A program made the position numbers and the translations under genes. 64,000 nucleotides of DNA. Origin: Alphaproteobacteria bacterium (GTDB lineage: Bacteria; Pseudomonadota; Alphaproteobacteria; Sphingomonadales; Sphingomonadaceae). Below are positions 24,952-34,944 of this stretch, in pieces. Within the stretch, counting starts at the first letter, position 1, and each line of letters starts with the position of its first letter. The stretch is from NCBI GenBank assembly GCA_005883305.1, contig VBAC01000001.1:248001-312000 (forward strand). Direction: 5' to 3'. A model generated the notes under the pieces. The model saw only the letters and a list, made by a program, of their open reading frames with translations. It did no database searches and was not told the DNA's origin.

Positions 24952-25167
24952 ATGAAGAAAATCATGCTCGCGCTGGCTTCGGCCGCCGTGACGGCGACGG
25001 CCATCGCTTCGGAGACGATCAGCTACAGCTATGATTCGCGCGGGCGGCTGGTGAAGGTCGTTCGGAGCGGAACGGTCAACAACAACGTCTCGGCCGAATA
25101 TAAATACGACAAGGCCGACAACCGGACCAACGTCAACGTCGTCTCGCCGAACGCGCCGCCCCAATGA
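24952..25167 (+). CDS. Small secreted YD-repeat partner of the RHS protein
   Basis: 71 aa with a signal peptide ([20 protein letters not shown]) and one YD-type repeat, [18 protein letters not shown], followed by a second half unit, [12 protein letters not shown]. It overlaps the large RHS gene by four bases (ATGA), so the two are translated together. It may be a soluble piece of, or cap for, the RHS shell; no function is known to me. Confidence 0.6.
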
Positions 25168-28100
25168 GCTCCCTTCTTGTGCGGCGTCTGGCCGCCGGTT
25201 TCACCGCGCTGCTCGCGCTTGGCTCGGCCGTCGCGGCCCGAGCCCAGAACGCGCCAGCGGAGATTGCGCCTCTCCAGCTCGCGACCGACCAGAACAACGT
25301 CAATGTCCTCGACGGCAGGACGACGATCGAGCCGCCGGCGCTGTCGGTTCCGGGCGCGCCGAACCTGCGCTTCGACCGGCTCCAGAACGCCGCCCCTTTC
25401 CTCAACGGAAAGAGACTGACCGCGAGCGGCGCGGAGCAGGTTCAGAGAACTTATGCGATCCATATCGGGTCGGCGACGTCGGACGCGTTCGACTGCGTCG
25501 AATCCGATTGCCTGAGCGTGACCGGAACCGGCTCGACCTTCAACCCGAACATTCGAGTCTACACCGAGCGGGGTTCGGCCACGGTCTGGACGTTCGCCCA
25601 GCCGGCGCTCAACGACACGTCGCCGACCCCGTCCTACAATTATTACGCCACAACGGCGGCCTATGCGAACGGCGAGGTGATCGCCTATCATTACAACGCG
25701 GTGCCGAATGGGGCCCCCTTCGGGCGAATGTCCGTTCGTCCCTACCGGATCACCAGTAGCCTCGGCTACCTGATCAAGCTCACCTACGCGGACGACAGCG
25801 ACCCGAACTCCAACGACTGGCAACGCGTCACCGAGGCCGCGATATACGCGGCCGCCGACGAGAGCACGGCGCTGCGCCGGTTCGCCTATGGCGGCGCGAC
25901 GATCACCGAATATGGCGCAGGCGATTCCGCCGGCCGCACCTATACGTGCCAGGGCTGCGTCAGCGCGATGGGCGCCAGCCCCGAGGTCGGGTCGGGATCG
26001 ATGCAATTGCCGGGCGAGCTTTCGCCCTCGCTACAGGTCAGCGCGGCGACCAGCGGCCTTTCTCCGGTGGCAACGGTCGATCGCGACGGCGTGGGCTGGA
26101 CCTACAGCTACGTCAATCTCCACACGCAGCCGGGCACCCTGCACTACATATTCGACAGGATGACGGCGACCGCGCCCGACGGATCGAGCCAAGTCTACAA
26201 CGTCGCGAACTCCTACCACAGCGTCTACGATCTGGCGACCAACCGCATCCATACGACGCTCACCAGCGCCCGCGACGGGCTCGGGCGGACCACCTCTTAT
26301 TTTTACGACGGACAAGATCGGCCCTACCGGATCATTTATCCCGAGCTGAACGAGGTCGGCGTCGTCTACGACGAATATCGGAACATCATCTCGCGAACGG
26401 CCACCCCGAAGCCCGGCTCGGGCCTCTCGCCGATCACCGAGACGGCCCATTACGACGTATCGACCTGCCCTGCCGTGCCGCGGACCACGCCGCTATGCTG
26501 GCGGCCGAGCTGGACCCGCGACGGATTTCAAAATCCCAATCGCCAGACGGACTACGCCTATAATACGCTCGGCCAGCTGACCGAGCAGGTCGATCCCGCC
26601 GACGCGAACGGCGTTCGACGCCGGACCTCGATCGTCTACACCGTTTCGACCGGAGGACTCAGCCGACGCTCCGCCGTGCGCATCTGCAACGATGCCGGCC
26701 CTGGCACGACTTGCGGCACGAACGCGCCGATCCAGACCGAATATGATTATTGGCAGAACACCCTGCTGCCCAGCGCCGAGCGTCGGATCGATGTTACGCA
26801 GGGGCAGACGGCGACCCTGACCACAAGCTTCACCTACGACGCCGCCGGCCGCCTGATCGCCACGGACGGCCCGATGCAGGGCACTGCCGACACCTCCTAC
26901 AATCGCTATGACGCGTACGGGCGGCTGGCCGGCACGATCAGCCCCGATCCGGACGGGACCGAAGCGCTGCCGAGGCTCGCGGTCAGGAACAGCTACGATT
27001 CCGCCGACCGGCTGATCAGGGTCGAAACCGGCACCCTCGCGTCGCTTCAGAGCGAAAGCGTTCGGCCGGCCGACTGGACCGGCTTCACGCCCAATCGGAC
27101 CGCCGAGACGGTCTACGACGGCAATGGCCGCAAGATCATGGAGCGGGTTCGCGCCGATGGCGCCGCCGGCGCGATCGTGACGCGCGCCGAATATAGCTAC
27201 GACGCGCTCGGCCGGCTCGAATGCACCGCGGTGCGAATGAATCCTGCTTCATTCGGAGCGCCGCCTGCCCCGGCCTGCCATCAGACGACACCAGCGGGAA
27301 GCGATCCCGACCGGATCACCAGGAACGTTTACGACGCCGCCGGCCAGATCACCGAGGTACACCAGGGGGTGGAAACCGGCGATGCCGCCATCGAGGTACA
27401 ATATGGCTATACCGCGAACGGCAACCTCCTGAATGTCATCGACGGCAACGGCAACACCTCTCGCTACGACTATGACGGCCTCGGCCGCCGCTCGCACCTC
27501 TGGTTCCCGTCGCCGACCACGCCCACCCAGGTGAGCACTGCCGACCACGAGCAATATTGGTACGACGCCGCCGGCAACCGCACGTCCTTGCGCAAGCGCG
27601 ACGGATCGACGCTCACCTACAATTACGACAATCTCAACCGGGTGATTTCAAAGATCGTGCCCGAGCGCCCGTCGGGCCCGCAGGCGCTGAGCGGGGGCCA
27701 GACCCGCGACGTCCATTACGGCTACGATCTCGGCGATCGGCAGCTCTTCGCCCGGTTCGATTCGCCGACCGGCGAGGGCGTGACCAACAGCTATGACGGG
27801 TTCGGCCGGCTTCTCTCGAGCAGCATCAACCTGGGCGGCGTCACCCGCACGCTCAATCACGACTACGATGCGAACGGCGGCCGCGCCCGGATCACCCATC
27901 CGGACGGCAATTGGTTCTCCTATGAACGGGACGGCCTCGGACGGCCCTTCTACCTCGCCTCGGCCGATAATTCGGCGCGCTACTATAGCTCCTACCGGCC
28001 CGACGGCCTCCCCGCCGGGCAGAGCCGCGGCAACGGCGCCTCGACCTGGACCTCGCGCGACGGCGTCGGCCGGCTGAACGGGCTCGGCCATTATTACATC

Positions 28101-29483
28101 TATGGCGGCAGCGGCCCCAACGACGTGCTCTGGCTCTACGGCCACAATCCGGCCGGCCAGATCGCCTCGATCGCGCGCGACAACGATCTCTACGCCTGGA
28201 CCGGCCATTATGGGGTGAACCGGACCTACACCACCAACGGGCTCAACCAGTACATCGCCGCGACGGGCGGCCCGAGCTTCGCCTACGACCTCAACGGCAA
28301 CCTCACCGGCGACGGCGTCCACGCCTACACCTACGACATCGAGAACCGCCTCGTCATGGCGACCGGCGGCGGCGCAGGGGCGGTGCTCGACTACGACCCG
28401 CTCGGCCGGCTGTGGCGGGTGACCTCGGGGAGCAACGCCACCACCTTCGTCTACGACGGCGACGCGCTCGTCGTGGAATATAACGCCGCGGGGACGATGA
28501 CCCGCCGCTACGTCCACTGGGACGGCGCCGACGTTCCGGTGATCGCCTATAACGATCAGACTCTCGCCGCGCCGGTCTATCTCCACCCCGACCACCAGGG
28601 ATCGATCGTCGCCTTGTCCGGCGCGATGGGCGCGCTCAGCGCGATCAACCGCTACGACGAATACGGCATCCCCGCCATAAATCCGCAGGGCGTCAATCTC
28701 AACTCGGGCCGATTCCAGTATACCGGCCAGGCGTGGCTCGCCGAGATCGGCATGTATTACTACAAGGCGCGGGTCTACTCGCCCTATCTTGGTCGGTTCC
28801 TGCAGGCCGATCCGATCGGGTATGACGACCAGTTCAATCTCTATGCTTACGTGGGGAATGATCCGGTCAATGCGGCCGATCCAAGCGGAGAGGCATGCCT
28901 ATCTTTTACTAGCAATGTATTGGGTGAATACTGCACCAGAGCAAGGGCGTACGCCGCCATGGATCAAGGGCTAAATGGGAAGACCCGCTTTTTCGCTGCG
29001 GCGGCCGCAACAATGACCATGTTCGGTAGCTTACAATTGCCGTATCCTGGCCCGCAGCTGGCAACCAGCAGAGAGTATCGGGGGCACATGTCGGCTATAA
29101 GCGGACAGCTTCAACAGAGAAACATACGCATGTTTCAAGAGGCCGCCGGAAGTCGCCTCAGCGGCGGCCGCTTGGACCGGGCGCTGGTGCACGCCGAACA
29201 GTCCCACGTTCAAGGTTACCTCAACGGTCTTCGGCGGAGCGACTCCGCAGCCTATGATCGACTAGTGACCGAAGCTAACGGTCTTCTAAACTCTGGGACA
29301 GGTGTCCCACTAACCACCGACGCGGCGTATAATCGCGTCCTGGGCCAGGTGCGCGAGCAGGTTGGCGGTAGCTTAGACTTCGGCAACCAGGATCATCGCG
29401 AGGCCATTGGCATGGGCCTGATTCGGGAGATTCGGCAAAGCGGCGGATGCAATCTTACAGGTACTCGAATTCGAGGATGTTGA
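25164..29483 (+). CDS. RHS/YD-repeat polymorphic toxin with variable C-terminal tip
   Basis: 1439 aa: a signal peptide (about 1-28, ending AARAQ), a long YD-repeat shell (many units such as [24 protein letters not shown] and [12 protein letters not shown]), and the RHS core near residues 1190-1242 ([20 protein letters not shown], then [18 protein letters not shown]). After PSG (1240-1242) a unique tip of about 197 aa follows. DNA from about 28890 on is clearly lower in GC than the shell, the usual sign of an exchanged toxin tip. The tip matches no toxin family I recognise. A secretion signal without PAAR/VgrG suggests Sec export rather than type VI delivery. The overlapping downstream membrane gene is the likely immunity gene. 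Confidence 0.85.
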
Positions 29484-29869
29484 TGAAACGTTGGAAAGTT
29501 ACTTGGCTAACCGGCCGCCTCGTTGAAGTTGTCCTGGTAACAGCTGCACTTTTCGCATGGGGCGTTGTCGTCGAACGCCCGGAAGTGCTTGGATATGTGA
29601 AATCTATATCCTTGGCACTCTTTAGCACATTGTTCTTCGGAACTGTTAGCGGATATTTTATAATAACGGCAATTTACATGAAGGAATCCAGGGCGACGCC
29701 TTGGCGTATAATAACGGTAATGGCATCACTGTTCTGCGTAACATTTACTATATTTTCTATTTTTATAGACTTCAATTTGACTGGAGCGATAAAGATGGGT
29801 CTACTTGGATTGGCCGTCTCGATCTTCGCCAATTCCGTGGCGATGGTGCTTTTTCGCAACAGGGATTAA
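29483..29869 (+). CDS. Four-helix membrane protein, candidate immunity protein
   Basis: 128 aa with about four hydrophobic segments (VVLVTAALFAWGVVV, ISLALFSTLFFGTVSGYFII, IITVMASLFCVTFTIFSIFI, MGLLGLAVSIFANSVAMVLF). ATG 29483 overlaps the RHS stop (TGATG) and has GAGG six bases upstream; a longer N-terminus from 29447 would lie inside the toxin gene. It is AT-rich like the toxin tip, and its position is the canonical one for an RHS immunity gene. A membrane immunity protein suggests the toxin acts on the envelope. No family was recognised. Confidence 0.6.
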   Translation: MKRWKVTWLTGRLVEVVLVTAALFAWGVVVERPEVLGYVKSISLALFSTLFFGTVSGYFIITAIYMKESRATPWRIITVMASLFCVTFTIFSIFIDFNLTGAIKMGLLGLAVSIFANSVAMVLFRNRD

Positions 29870-29960
29870 GAATTCCGGGGACACAATACCTAATTGCCCC
29901 CCCCTGCCTCGCTCGCTCTCTCGGGAGCTGCGTAGGCGCTGCGGTTTTGAGCCCTTTCTC

Positions 29961-30200
29961 CGCGACAATGATGCGTTCGCGTGGGGCTCGCATTACGCCG
30001 TCGCTCGCCCCTACACCACCAACGGGCTCAACCAGTACATCGCCGCGACGGGCGGCCCGAGCTTCGCCTACGACCTCAACGGCAACCTCACCGGCGACGG
30101 CGTCCACGCCTACACCTACGACATCGAGAACCGCCTCGTCATGGCGACCGGCGGCGGCGCAGGGGCGGTGCTCGACTACGACCCGCTCGGCCGGCTGTGG
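29961..30200 (+). pseudogene. Displaced RHS core fragment
   Basis: The frame at 29961 reads RDNDAFAWGSHYAVARPY and then [14 protein letters not shown] and on to YDPLGRLW, matching residues about 1012-1084 of the RHS protein. Bases 30010-30200 equal 28225-28415 over 191 bp; upstream of 30010 the two are diverged. No start, shell or toxin tip is present, so it is a leftover of an earlier RHS 3' end or of a recombination event. Confidence 0.8.
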
Positions 30201-30336
30201 GCGCGAGGGGACAGTTACTGCGGCGGCCCCGAAACATGCGGTGACAGGACACTGAATTCCGAATGAGACGATCGGGCCGGAAATGCCGGGCTGACGCCTT
30301 CGCCCCGAAATGCTAGACCGCGCCGGGAAACTAAGG

Positions 30337-31499: not shown

Positions 31500-31619
31500 G
31501 AGTCATCTCGGCGAAGGCCGGGACCCATGAACACGGTCTTTGCGAGAGAGGCGAAGACCTTGTTACCTCTCTTCCCAGCACTTCGGTTCATAGGCCCCGG
31601 CTTTCGCCGGGGTGACTCC
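31500..31619. repeat. Palindromic repeat, family B copy 2
   Basis: GAGTCATCTCGGCGAAGGCC at the left and GGCTTTCGCCGGGGTGACTC at the right, with inner CCCATGAAC / GGTTCATAGG arms. Both ends have GANTC. It lies just before the Lgt-like gene; reading frames through it (peptides like GPGFRRGDS) are artefacts of the repeat. Confidence 0.9.
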
Positions 31620-31691: not shown

Positions 31692-32405
31692 TTGCAGATT
31701 CCAACGAATCCCGCCCTCCACATCCTGTTCGATCTCCTCGCCTGGGGATCGGCGGGGCTGCTCGCGCACCTCCTCTATCGCTGGCGGCTGCGCCCGGTCG
31801 CGGCGCGGTTCGTCGGAGTCACCGGCCCGGCCTATGTCGCCGCGCTCGCGCTCGGAGCGATCGGAGGAGCCTGGGCGTTCGGGTCGTGGAACACGGCGCT
31901 GATGGCCGTCCCGCATCCCTCGCACAGCATCGCCGGCGCCCTGGCCGGCGGGATCGTCGGAGTCGAGCTCTACAAGCTGGCGCGGGGCATCCGCGCCTCG
32001 ACGGGGCTGATCTGGGTGGGGCCGCTGGCGCTCGGAATCGCGGTCGGCCGGATCGGCTGCCTGCTCGCCGGCCTTCCCGACGAGACCTATGGCGTCCCGA
32101 CCAGCCTGCCCTGGGGAGTCGACCTCGGTGACGGCGTCGCCCGCCACCCGGTCCAGGTCTACGAAAGCCTGGCGATGCTCGCCTTCCTCGCCGTCTACCT
32201 CGCCGCGCTCGCCCGCCGCGCCGCCTGGACCCAGACCCGAGCCTTCTACCTGTTCGTGCTCTGCTACGCGGTGCAGCGCTTCGTCTGGGAGTTCCTCAAG
32301 CCCTATCCGCGGGTGATCGGCCCGTTCGACCTGTTCCATCTTCTCGCGGCCGGAATGATCGCTTATGCCCTGATCTTCGATGCACGCGCTCGCCACCAAC
32401 GCTGA
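31692..32405 (+). CDS. Lgt-like (prolipoprotein diacylglyceryl transferase family) membrane protein
   Basis: 237 aa with about seven hydrophobic segments. Family marks: a GRIGCLLAGLPDETYG stretch (119-134) in place of the Lgt signature GRxGNFxNxE, HPVQVYES (152-159) equal to HPxQxYE, and RFVWEFLKPYPRVIG (196-210). A SIAGALAGG stretch (79-87) stands where Lgt has its HGG motif, so it is a paralogue and not the housekeeping enzyme. The start is taken as TTG 31692 with AGGGGAGGGG about seven bases upstream; the frame continues upstream only through the repeat. Probable substrate: a phospholipid. It overlaps the radical SAM gene by 26 bp. Confidence 0.75.
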   Translation: MQIPTNPALHILFDLLAWGSAGLLAHLLYRWRLRPVAARFVGVTGPAYVAALALGAIGGAWAFGSWNTALMAVPHPSHSIAGALAGGIVGVELYKLARGIRASTGLIWVGPLALGIAVGRIGCLLAGLPDETYGVPTSLPWGVDLGDGVARHPVQVYESLAMLAFLAVYLAALARRAAWTQTRAFYLFVLCYAVQRFVWEFLKPYPRVIGPFDLFHLLAAGMIAYALIFDARARHQR

Positions 32406-33813
32406 CCTCACACGCAAGAGCGTGCCGTGGATCTTCTACGGCCAGACGACGAGCCTGTGCGAGACCTGCTGGGAGCTCGTTCCGGCCAAGATCATCGGTC
32501 AGGAGGGCAAGGTCTTCCTTCAGAAGCGCTGCCTCGATCATGGCGTCACCAAGACGCTGATCGAGGAGGACGCGGATTACTGGCTCGACATCCGCCGCTG
32601 GCTGAAGCCCGGCGACCGGCCGCTGCACAATGCGACGAAGACCGAGCGCGGCTGCCCGTGGGATTGCGGCCTCTGTCCCGACCACGAGCAGCATAGCTGC
32701 CTGTGCATCGTCGAGATCAACGATGCCTGCAACCTCACCTGCCCGGTCTGCTTCGCCGACAGCGCGGTGGGAAAGGGCGGGCACAAGAGCCTGGCCAAGG
32801 TCGAGGCGATGCTCGACGCGGTGGTCGCGGCCGAGGGCGAGCCGGACCTGATCCAGCTCTCCGGCGGCGAGCCGACCATCCATCCTCAATTCTGGGAGAT
32901 CGTCGCCGCGGCGCGGTCGCGTCCGATCCGCCACATCATGGTCAACACCAACGGCGTTCGGATCGCCCAGGAAGAGGGCTTCGCCGAGAAGCTGAAAGAG
33001 GTCGGGATCGGTTTCGAGGTCTATCTCCAGTTCGATAGCCTCAGCGACGACGCGCTGATGGAGCTTCGCGGCGCGCGGCTCGGGCGGATCCGCCGCCGGG
33101 CGCTCGAGCGGCTCGAGGCGGCGGGCGTCTCGACCACCCTGGTCTGCGCGGTGCGCCAAGGCGTCAACGATCACGAATGCGCGGCGATCGTCGACTACGC
33201 GCTGCAGTGGAAATGCGTGCGCGGCGTGGTTTTCCAGCCGGTTCAGGACGCGGGGCGCAACGAGGGCTTCGATCCCGCGCTGCACCGCGCGACCCTCTCG
33301 GGCCTCAGGCGGCAGATCGCGTCGGGCGGCGTGTTCGAGGCGTCGGATCTCGTGCCGCTGCCGTGCAATCCGGACCAGATCTGCATCGGCTACGGCATCC
33401 GCGCCGGCGCGAGCGTCGTTCCGGTGACCCGGATGATGAAGCGCGAGGACATCGTCTCGGTCGCTCCCAACACGATCAGCTTCGAGCGCGATCCGGCGCT
33501 CAAGGCGCGGATCTTCGATCTGCTCTCGCTGTCCACCGTAGAGGACAATGGCGAGAGCCGCCTCGCCAGCCTGTTCTGCTGCCTGCCGGAGATCGAGACT
33601 CCGACGAGCCTCGCCTATCAGGACACGTTCAAGGTCGTCATCATCCAGTTCCTCGACCGCTTCAATTTCGACATCGGAACGGTCAAAAGGTCGTGCATTC
33701 ATTTCGCGACGAGCGACGGGCGGATCATTCCGTTCGACACCTACAACAGCTTCTACCGCCCGGGCGCTCCCGGCGCGGCCAAGCTGGCGGAGAAGGGGGG
33801 AGTAGGAGCATGA
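32380..33813 (+). CDS. Radical SAM enzyme of the tetraether synthase (Tes/MJ0619) type
   Basis: 477 aa. An N-terminal metal knuckle has C27xxC30 and C51xxH54; a second cluster motif is C92xxxC96xxC99 with C107 (GCPWDCGLCPDHEQHSC); the radical SAM motif is C117xxxC121xxC124 (CNLTCPVC), and LSGGEPT follows near 165. The C-terminal VKRSCIHFATSDGRIIPFDTYNS also follows the archaeal Tes pattern. Archaeal Tes joins lipid tails through C-C bonds, so a lipid substrate is likely. It is placed between an Lgt-like gene (26 bp overlap) and a small membrane gene (ATGA overlap). Family call good; the reaction here is unknown. Confidence 0.8.
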   Translation: MHALATNADLTRKSVPWIFYGQTTSLCETCWELVPAKIIGQEGKVFLQKRCLDHGVTKTLIEEDADYWLDIRRWLKPGDRPLHNATKTERGCPWDCGLCPDHEQHSCLCIVEINDACNLTCPVCFADSAVGKGGHKSLAKVEAMLDAVVAAEGEPDLIQLSGGEPTIHPQFWEIVAAARSRPIRHIMVNTNGVRIAQEEGFAEKLKEVGIGFEVYLQFDSLSDDALMELRGARLGRIRRRALERLEAAGVSTTLVCAVRQGVNDHECAAIVDYALQWKCVRGVVFQPVQDAGRNEGFDPALHRATLSGLRRQIASGGVFEASDLVPLPCNPDQICIGYGIRAGASVVPVTRMMKREDIVSVAPNTISFERDPALKARIFDLLSLSTVEDNGESRLASLFCCLPEIETPTSLAYQDTFKVVIIQFLDRFNFDIGTVKRSCIHFATSDGRIIPFDTYNSFYRPGAPGAAKLAEKGGVGA

Positions 33814-34061
33814 GCGAGGGCGAGGGACCGTCGGCCGGTGCGATACTGCTCGGCATCTTCATGCTGTTGGCGGGGCTGTGCATCACGCTTCTCGGCGGCG
33901 GCTGCACCCTGCTGTGGCTCAGCCAGTTCAATTCGCCCTACGACGGGGGAATGTCCAATCTGGTCAATCCGCTCTTCATCCTGTCGCTCGTCACCCTCGC
34001 CGGCGGGCTCGGCATGCTGTGGTTCGGCTTCAGGCTGCTGACGGGCAAGTATCGCAGATAG
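33810..34061 (+). CDS. Small two-helix membrane protein of the radical SAM unit
   Basis: 83 aa with hydrophobic segments at about 11-37 and 52-76 and a short polar loop (SQFNSPYDGGMSN). ATG 33810 overlaps the radical SAM stop (ATGA), so it is translationally coupled. No family is recognised. It may anchor the enzyme at the membrane or help present a lipid; this is inference from position only. Confidence 0.6.
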   Translation: MSEGEGPSAGAILLGIFMLLAGLCITLLGGGCTLLWLSQFNSPYDGGMSNLVNPLFILSLVTLAGGLGMLWFGFRLLTGKYRR

Positions 34062-34239: not shown

Positions 34240-34944
34240 GTGCGGCAGGTCCAGAATTACATCGACTCGGATGGAATTATTGAAATCCGAGCGGAAACGG
34301 AGACCGTTTCGATGGGCATTGTCAAGAATCGGCTGATCGAATGCGCGGAGCGGGAATGGCGATATTTTGGTGGGTCGACGCGAAACATCGAGAACCAGTG
34401 GAACATCGTGGGCGATGAGGCGGACGAACCCTTTCGATCGCACATAAGTCACTATTGGGCCTCCGTGGGCAAGCCCGATTGGAACGGCGGCACGGACGAG
34501 CCTTGGTCCGCGGCATTCATCAGCTGGTGTTTCAAGATTGCCGGAGCTGGAAGCGGATTCAGCGGAGACGCGACCCATTCCGTCTATATAAACCGGATAA
34601 GGCTGGGCGACGGCATGGATCCGCGCCTGACGCTCCGATCGCCGCCCAACACCCCCTTGCGAGTGGGCGACCTAATCTGGAACTCGCGTAGTGACGGCCA
34701 GGACGAGAATATTCCACGCAGCCTGGCCGAAGCGACCGCGCGCCTAGCGGCCGGCGACTTCTTTATTTCTCATGTCGATATCGTAGTTGCGGTTGGTCAG
34801 GGGCGGTGCGACAGCATAGGAGGGAATGTCTCCAACCTCGACGTTGGCGGATCGGTCACCAAGTCGACGTGGCGCCTTGATGATCAAGGTTGTTTGAGCG
34901 ATCCGCGCAAGCCCTGGATCGGCGTCGTTCGCAACGACCTCTGA
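34240..34944 (+). CDS. DUF2272 family protein
   Basis: Up to 234 aa; the motif EPWSAAFISWCFKIAGAGSGF followed by H..YI and later FISHVDIVVAVG is typical of DUF2272, which resembles NlpC/P60-like papain-fold amidases (candidate Cys in ISWC, His in SHVD). No signal peptide is visible. The start is GTG 34240 or ATG 34312 (MGIVKNRLIECAEREW, with GGAG nine bases upstream). The region 34090-34900 is lower in GC than its neighbours, suggesting transfer. Role unknown; a phage- or toxin-type wall amidase is possible. Confidence 0.65.
   Translation: MRQVQNYIDSDGIIEIRAETETVSMGIVKNRLIECAEREWRYFGGSTRNIENQWNIVGDEADEPFRSHISHYWASVGKPDWNGGTDEPWSAAFISWCFKIAGAGSGFSGDATHSVYINRIRLGDGMDPRLTLRSPPNTPLRVGDLIWNSRSDGQDENIPRSLAEATARLAAGDFFISHVDIVVAVGQGRCDSIGGNVSNLDVGGSVTKSTWRLDDQGCLSDPRKPWIGVVRNDL

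Follow-up and report, generated by a model that had tools for sequence, protein, structure and literature searches.

Why does a bacterium place a paralogue of the phospholipid-using enzyme Lgt, a relative of the archaeal tetraether synthase Tes and a tiny membrane protein in three overlapping genes? This arrangement was seen in a window of 64,000 nucleotides (the whole stretch of DNA that was analyzed; contig VBAC01000001.1, positions 248,001 to 312,000) from an alphaproteobacterium of the Sphingomonadaceae. The Tes relative is a radical S-adenosylmethionine (SAM) enzyme, and the initial annotation had proposed that the three products work together. We found that the Lgt-like and radical SAM genes form a conserved pair, mostly with a gene for a small membrane protein, and that a same-strand Lgt-like gene adjoins the radical SAM gene in 151 of 161 loci. 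Co-occurrence in other genomes, which had been set beforehand as a test, was strongly passed by these counts. Because the pairing recurs in four phyla, the trio is a real observation and not a product of chance. The open reading frames (ORFs) lie as the initial annotation had placed them:

31692..32405, + strand: Lgt paralogue (P0002), 237 aa, TTG start, identified by PF01790, an AlphaFold model and alignment
32380..33813, + strand: Tes-related radical SAM enzyme (P0001), 477 aa, ATG to TGA; profile match to the Tes structure 7TOL, E = 1.1e-109
33810..34061, + strand: small membrane protein (P0003), 83 aa, ATG to TAG, two predicted transmembrane helices

The Lgt-like and radical SAM genes overlap by 26 nt, and the stop codon of the latter shares the letters ATGA with the start of the small-protein gene. 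An in-frame ATG at 31527 lies upstream of the Lgt-like TTG at 31692; the conserved part of the protein starts at about 31692. The source genome (3.03 Mb) carries an ordinary lgt on another contig (271.8 bits). Among the best 80 of 95 scanned loci, the closest named one belongs to a Sphingomonadaceae bacterium, with 90% protein identity.

Recurrence of the pair in other genomes

The 161 loci, with near-duplicates retained, comprise 86 initial loci, plasmid loci and loci from genomes drawn evenly from three phyla; left out were three methyltransferase-linked plasmid loci (L114–L116) and a duplicate of the locus in the window. The initial set joined six loci from relatives to the best 80 of 95 from a contig scan, whose patterns were taken from the window protein and favor close relatives; an Lgt-like gene is present in 84 of these 86. 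Named hosts in the scan include Sphingomonas, Reyranella and Flavobacteriaceae. Over the full set, the Lgt-like gene lies upstream of the radical SAM gene in 140 loci, overlapping it or separated from it by 30 nt or less in 103 of them, lies downstream in 11 and is missing from the stretch in 10. Pairing was found in Pseudomonadota, Bacteroidota and Planctomycetota, and three plasmid records add Actinomycetota.

Each evenly drawn sample includes the system-bearing genome on which it was centered. The radical SAM gene was detected in 12 of 398 Pseudomonadota genomes, with Lgt at 12/12 loci, and in 32 of 345 Bacteroidota genomes, with Lgt at 28 of the 30 loci given. Matches were found in 64 of 343 Planctomycetota genomes, and Lgt was present at 24 of the 30 best loci, a selection from the 64 matching genomes that is biased toward the high-scoring clade.

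Among the ten exceptions, the flank at L004 (genome G024) is too short to include an Lgt-like gene that lies some 1.4 kb upstream, the contig begins inside the radical SAM gene at L062, L174 starts at a contig end, and L180 ends at one, with another contig of the same genome beginning with a piece of an Lgt-like gene. In two Bacteroidota genomes (L144 and L147) the system-type Lgt (250.6 and 244.2 bits) is encoded on a different contig, so that the pairing holds there without linkage. At L189 the gene lies about 3.5 kb downstream in a widened stretch (L196), and the genome of L185 has a sister-type Lgt-like gene on another contig (115.8 bits).

In each of nine system-bearing genomes, PF01790 matches twice and no more, once strongly and once weakly. 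Among 118 relatives, the second Lgt adjoins the radical SAM gene in all six genomes with a full-length radical SAM protein, and one of the other 111 (G088) has a second LGT match of comparable score (Fisher p = 2e-9); G004, which lacks a second Lgt and shows 45 residues of the radical SAM protein at the end of a contig, was left out of this count. More than one LGT match occurs in 5 of the 111 radical SAM-negative relatives: G088 (82 bits), G048 (243.8 bits for a second copy that scores like an ordinary one), G032 (a single gene split in two), and G003 and G058 (extra matches of 20–25 bits). The second match of G088 fits the system profile weakly with filters off (18.2 bits) and gives no match with filters on.

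The pairwise identities of the radical SAM and Lgt-like proteins correlate (r = 0.964 over 136 loci), a value that simple co-inheritance would fit too. However, gene order varies among loci while the pairing persists, and these order changes, together with the unlinked co-occurrence and the scattered presence among relatives, count against co-inheritance as the explanation and argue for a partnership.

The two enzymes and their nearest relatives

The Lgt paralogue belongs to the Lgt family of Pfam (PF01790, 70 bits; gathering cut-off 24.9) and scores below the NCBIfam equivalog cut-off for Lgt (50.4 versus 334; TIGR00544, 26.5 versus 118.9). Its AlphaFold model (predicted local distance difference test score 92.6) is mostly helical, with seven long helices. 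Conservation was counted over 140 main-set sequences, one per locus and near-copies included, in E. coli numbering by alignment. The R143 and G154 positions are invariant (140/140), Y235 and R239 show no exception in 139 aligned rows, and the E243 position is Glu in 122/140 and Asp in 16/140; R120 and R196 of the window protein correspond to R143 and R239. The RHP motif of E. coli Lgt (5AZB/5AZC) is also shared. Unlike the E. coli enzyme, the paralogue has His at the Y26 position (135/135 aligned rows), Cys at the N146 position (140/140), and Met, Val, Ala, Leu or Ile at the H103 position in 135/140 (Glu in 5, never His). Glu92 (98%) and Lys95 (100%) are new relative to E. coli Lgt. The altered signature maps as follows:

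32049..32060, + strand: R120 (E. coli R143) to C123 (position of N146) of the Lgt paralogue, GRIGC instead of GRLGN, both residues in 140/140

In E. coli Lgt, R143 and R239 are reported to bind and activate the phosphatidylglycerol donor, H103, R143 and R239 mutants to be inactive, and changes at R143, Y235, R239 and E243 to inactivate the enzyme, with Y235T partly active (PMC4728403). Y26, H103, R143, N146, G154 and R239 have been reported as essential (PMC13251419), and of this set the paralogue keeps R143, G154 and R239 and replaces Y26, H103 and N146. The same source describes H103 as variable among true Lgts and reports Cys at position 146 in distant Lgts and in L. interrogans Lgt. It also describes a second Lgt homologue of M. 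smegmatis, MSMEG_5408, which by that description carries the same two changes (Y26H and N146C); low Lgt activity is presumed for it, and the passages concerning it mention no radical SAM neighbor (PMC13251419). With the family match, the retained R143, R239 and Y235 and the altered signature, the product is an Lgt paralogue, as the initial annotation had it. An ordinary second lgt copy was rejected on the changed signature and the radical SAM pairing.

The partner enzyme has a Radical_SAM domain (PF04055, 78.5 bits) and a zinc ribbon (PF23545, 59 bits). Its nearest solved structure is Tes (GDGT-MAS, MJ0619; PDB 7TOL/7TOM), with E = 9.4e-63 and, with the profile, 1.1e-109 over nearly the whole chain; SkfB came second and was far weaker (profile E = 1.6e-11). 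Among NCBIfam models, TrsS (NF045646, a radical SAM (seleno)protein) gave the top score, 305 bits over nearly full length, versus 264.7 bits for Tes (NF045702), and both scores lie far below the curated cut-offs (490 and 450). TrsS, which appears as a table entry in PMC13188914, also scored highest in ten relatives scanned, all below its cut-off; unlike TrsS, the window gene has no in-frame stop. The motifs are located as follows:

32458..32541, + strand: rubredoxin-type metal site C27, C30, C51 and H54, Tes-like spacing
32653..32685, + strand: N-terminal auxiliary cluster motif C92, C96 and C99 (C92x3C96x2C99) plus H102
32728..32751, + strand: radical SAM cluster CxxxCxxC (C117, C121, C124), 149/149 rows
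33364..33696, + strand: C-terminal part with conserved cysteines C329 (33364–33366), C400–C401 (33577–33582) and C439 (33694–33696)

The proposed cysteine layout of rubredoxin site, extra cluster motif and CxxxCxxC is present in the radical SAM protein of the window. Over 149 main-clade rows, the rubredoxin ligands are kept (C27 and C30 146/149, C51 148/149, H54 147/149), and their spacing, C27x2C30x20C51x2H54, matches that given for Tes, C9x2C12x20C33x2H36 (PMC9433317). The N-terminal motif, a [4Fe-4S] motif as in Tes, is kept with H102 in 148–149 of 149 rows; four actinobacterial-type rows do not keep it. Residues matching the Tes SAM-site R210, Q268 and R275 are kept in the main clade.

The "Tes-type C-terminus" of the initial annotation stood in one part and failed in another: the stretch IHxxxxDGRIIPFxTYNxFYR is common to both proteins, but the conserved cysteines differ. 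The enzyme's own set is nearly invariant (C329 149/149, C400 145/149, C401 146/149, C439 147/149), and only C439 aligns with a Tes cysteine (C456). The Tes C438 position is Ile or Val in 148/149 rows, the C455 position is never Cys, the C470 position is Glu or Asp in 147/149 and the C338 position is Cys in 12/149, a difference in which cysteines are conserved and not a comparison of cluster ligands. The Met439 position is Met in 93/149 rows (Ile in the window protein), and the Tyr459 position is Ile or Phe in 147/149. In Tes, Met439, which is labile, and Tyr459 are reported to be invariant across 1000 archaeal homologues (PMC9433317); because variants at Tyr459 are reported to retain activity, the difference at this position weighs little. 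We rejected a reading of cluster geometry from the AlphaFold model because its confidence is below 50 at residues 82–93, 97–105, 358–371 and 373–411.

In a tree of 60 rows kept at 70% identity from 180, which includes one archaeal Tes and some long branches, one side (support 89/86) holds all 40 Lgt-linked rows and six without Lgt. Tes 7TOL groups with a non-Lgt row (support 99/93), apart from the Lgt-linked side, and the Lgt-linkage label requires 5 changes versus 16.2 when shuffled. Transfer of an archaeal-type Tes into bacteria was rejected on the tree, the cut-off and the C-terminal residues.

A sister-clade operon (L198:4784-5855) encodes a radical SAM enzyme, an ICMT/PEMT-type methyltransferase (PF04140, 49.9 bits; PF04191, 41.4 bits), a DUF4395 membrane protein and an Lgt-like protein with a GR.GC..GCC motif; by eye, the arrangement at L197 looks the same. 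ICMT acts on S-lipidated cysteine, and a methyltransferase placed between radical SAM and Lgt genes points to S-lipid or phospholipid chemistry.

Other relatives differ in their surroundings. Another meeting of the ICMT-like and Lgt-like families was noted by eye at L215:1607-3559 (G088), where a 651-aa protein combines an ICMT-like methyltransferase with a phosphatase-like membrane part and, at its end, an Lgt-like portion carrying GRVRC..GCC. Sister-clade radical SAM genes at L159/L197 and L191 have one in-frame TGA, possibly selenocysteine as in TrsS. Tes-like radical SAM genes without Lgt occur on a Mycolicibacterium and two haloarchaeal plasmids (L114, L115 and L116), with a methyltransferase gene directly after them and CcdA, redoxin or DUF547 genes near. 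Three planctomycete contigs (L206, L207 and L208) carry two or three Tes-like radical SAM genes close together, with no Lgt in the stretch.

The small membrane protein and its cysteine

The two predicted helices of the 83-aa product agree with the initial annotation. No Pfam or NCBIfam family was found for it, the one match (E = 0.07) falling below cut-off. C24 and C32 lie in its first helix, C32 within a GGGCT motif. A small membrane ORF follows the radical SAM gene or sits between it and Lgt in many loci. A filter for ORFs of up to 200 aa with at least two helices, predicted blind to cysteine, within fixed distances found one in 81 of the 106 loci that remained after near-copy removal (Pseudomonadota 34/37, Bacteroidota 32/36, Planctomycetota 12/30, Actinomycetota 3/3), and two or more in 23 loci. 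Two mycobacterial plasmids have small-protein pairs between Lgt and radical SAM, with GxCTGLNP near the end; in Nonomuraea, one small protein precedes Lgt.

The controls were other ORFs of the same loci. A cysteine in or at a helix is found in 78/81 loci versus 38/185 control pieces (20%), and Gly at −2 from the cysteine, often as Gly-x-Cys, in 54/81 versus 7/185, the loci in these counts being related and so not independent; the 185 pieces are conserved membrane ORFs matched in at least three other loci. A strict inside-to-outside test, which required more positive charge before than after the helix, was passed by 59/73 versus 17/199 controls, a set that includes spurious ORFs. The positive-inside rule would place the cysteines that pass this test close to the outer face, the side on which Lgt acts.

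A classical lipoprotein has an N-terminal signal peptide with the lipobox [LVI][ASTVI][GAS]C. The small proteins are not of this kind: Ile or Leu stands before the cysteine in 44/98, and the cysteine is near the C-terminus in Bacteroidota (median distance 6 residues; Planctomycetota 9, Actinomycetota 11, Pseudomonadota 51). We weighed the possibility that the small proteins are unrelated between phyla, which is not provable: single-linkage BLAST with composition correction off linked 101 of 105 of them, a linkage that hydrophobicity may cause. The small protein, an accessory in the initial annotation, may instead be the substrate, as its conserved transmembrane cysteine suggests. Some planctomycete small proteins (L164, L165, L189 and L191) have an N-terminal, zinc-ribbon-like CxxC...CxxC before the membrane helices.

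Possible functions of the trio

A lipid-linked role would be the natural reading of an Lgt paralogue beside a Tes relative. We tentatively prefer a dedicated protein-lipid modification, in which the Lgt paralogue attaches diacylglycerol to the small-protein cysteine and the radical SAM enzyme performs C-H chemistry on the lipid or its donor. A changed Lgt that retains its arginines, a Tes-type radical SAM enzyme and a fixed membrane cysteine fit this reading best.

The Lgt paralogue would use R120 and R196 to take diacylglyceryl from phosphatidylglycerol at the outer face of the inner membrane. The acceptor would be the conserved cysteine in or at a transmembrane helix of the small protein, often in Gly-x-Cys followed by a small residue; since the cysteine-bearing helix mostly runs inside-to-outside where charges allow, this residue would lie near the outer interface where Lgt works. 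Least certain is the third step, in which the cytoplasmic radical SAM enzyme might make a radical on a saturated acyl chain, either of donor phosphatidylglycerol before its outward flip or of the lipid on the small protein. A C-C bond could follow, or a C-S bond through the enzyme's own C-terminal cluster, to yield a tiny membrane protein with an unusual lipid anchor. In a bolder form, which we think improbable, the Lgt paralogue would lipidate the cysteine of the mini-protein and the Tes relative would join the acyl tails through C-C bonds, or to another lipid or protein, into a membrane-spanning, protein-capped staple present in at least four phyla.

Several findings weigh against a lipidated small protein. 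Y26, H103 and N146, reported as essential in E. coli Lgt, are all changed in the paralogue, so that transfer to a thiol is not assured. A cytoplasmic radical SAM enzyme cannot easily reach a lipid on an outer-face cysteine, and the role of this enzyme is the weakest link, Tes chemistry being suggested by its fold family and not by its C-terminal site. Unlike in a normal lipobox, Ile and Leu are the commonest residues at −1 from the cysteine (44/98), and the small membrane ORF of L174 has no cysteine. In the strict orientation test, the window's own small protein is one of the 14/73 failures, owing to an N-terminus devoid of Lys and Arg. At 25 of the 106 unique loci, including 18 from Planctomycetota, no small ORF passed the filter; some of the 25 sit at contig ends, and L170 and L171 show a small ORF on inspection. 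Two main-clade loci among the ten exceptions, L186 and L187, have no Lgt in the stretch, and their genomes carry one and two LGT matches, respectively. Finally, lower-scoring Tes-like regions of Planctomycetota and Bacteroidota (L200–L211) have no nearby Lgt in 8 of 12 cases and have it in 4. Thus, the pairing marks clades and not the whole superfamily.

Alternatively, the Lgt paralogue may make or remodel a free glycerolipid whose tails the radical SAM enzyme couples like Tes, with the small protein as scaffold or regulator, a possible but unlikely explanation. Tes works on lipid tails, and its crystal held E. coli phospholipids (PMC9433317); it is also the nearest solved structure, and the rubredoxin site, the N-terminal cluster motif and the R210/Q268/R275 equivalents are kept. 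Bacterial Tes homologues have been proposed for the synthesis of branched glycerol dialkyl glycerol tetraethers (brGDGTs) (PMC8941075). However, the Tes C-terminal cysteines and Met439 are not conserved, the enzyme stands apart from the one Tes in the tree, and a free-lipid pathway gives no reason for the conserved cysteine of the small protein. To our knowledge, none of Sphingomonas, Reyranella and Flavobacteriaceae is known for membrane-spanning lipids, which also counts against it.

The initial annotation had pointed to tail-to-tail coupling, which we now regard as one possibility and not the indicated one: TrsS outscores Tes, the tree position is separate, and Tes chemistry has been reported at its C-terminal cluster region, where this enzyme is remodelled. 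Such coupling is not established, because the enzyme falls outside the one Tes in the tree, is without most of the C-terminal cysteines of Tes and a fixed Met439, and has its own cysteine set. Mss, a bacterial membrane-spanning lipid synthase, is a proposed joiner of acyl tails and has been modelled as Tes-like (PMC13274423); it is set apart by its description, being reported together with Ger and under mostly anaerobic conditions (PMC11868695).

It is less probable that the radical SAM enzyme matures the small protein by a peptide C-S or C-C bond while the Lgt paralogue anchors or presents it, a hybrid resembling a lipoprotein and a ribosomally synthesized and post-translationally modified peptide (RiPP). 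The small, divergent and sometimes duplicated partner with a conserved cysteine would suit a maturase, as would the peptide maturase SkfB as second solved structure, but the SkfB profile match (1.6e-11) compares poorly with that to Tes (1.1e-109), and the position of the cysteine, in or at a membrane helix, also counts against it. Several maturase families, of the SPASM type and others, appear among the NCBIfam matches too; among the 25 of 39 matches listed, these cover the radical SAM core only (residues ~102–313) with at most 58 bits, versus 305 for TrsS and 265 for Tes. Diacylglycerol-bearing RiPPs (DAG-RiPPs) made by other enzymes exist, in which a small protein is likewise joined to diacylglycerol with a metal enzyme; they differ in using an MNIO enzyme and an ordinary lipoprotein signal and pathway (PMC12636315).

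We consider it very doubtful that the radical SAM enzyme makes a small molecule or cofactor, as in TrsS-type systems, and that the Lgt paralogue uses a non-lipid substrate. TrsS tops the NCBIfam scores for the window protein and the ten relatives scanned, and Lgt-less relatives carry methyltransferase and redox genes; against this, every TrsS score is below cut-off, and the donor-side arginine pair of Lgt is kept in all aligned main-set rows. A defence system was rejected, since the PADLOC hits were confined to weak viperin (pVip) ones, which scored no more than 46.1 bits and fell on the radical SAM core.

Among the matches listed in the open-access literature, with subscription papers mostly outside this scope, we found no description of the Lgt-radical SAM unit. 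New here are the unit, the partner of the altered Lgt subfamily and the candidate substrate; each enzyme family and the existence of bacterial Tes homologues were already known. Bacterial Tes relatives have been counted in hundreds of genomes as proposed makers of brGDGTs, with activity described as unconfirmed (PMC8941075, PMC11868695). One large clade of them now gains a genetic partner and a candidate substrate, and the question becomes directly testable in culturable bacteria. This also cautions against taking bacterial "Tes" matches alone as evidence for membrane-spanning lipids. If true, the preferred reading would extend protein-lipid modification beyond the Lgt-LspA-Lnt pathway.

Immediately after the trio, 34240–34944 (+) encodes a DUF2272 protein (69.7 bits). 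By eye, 25164–30266 (+) holds an RHS/YD-repeat-like protein of 1439 aa and, after it, a small membrane ORF (29447–29869), and an orphan fragment at 29805–30266 repeats the ...DPLGRLW segment of the RHS-like protein, as in Rhs tip exchange.

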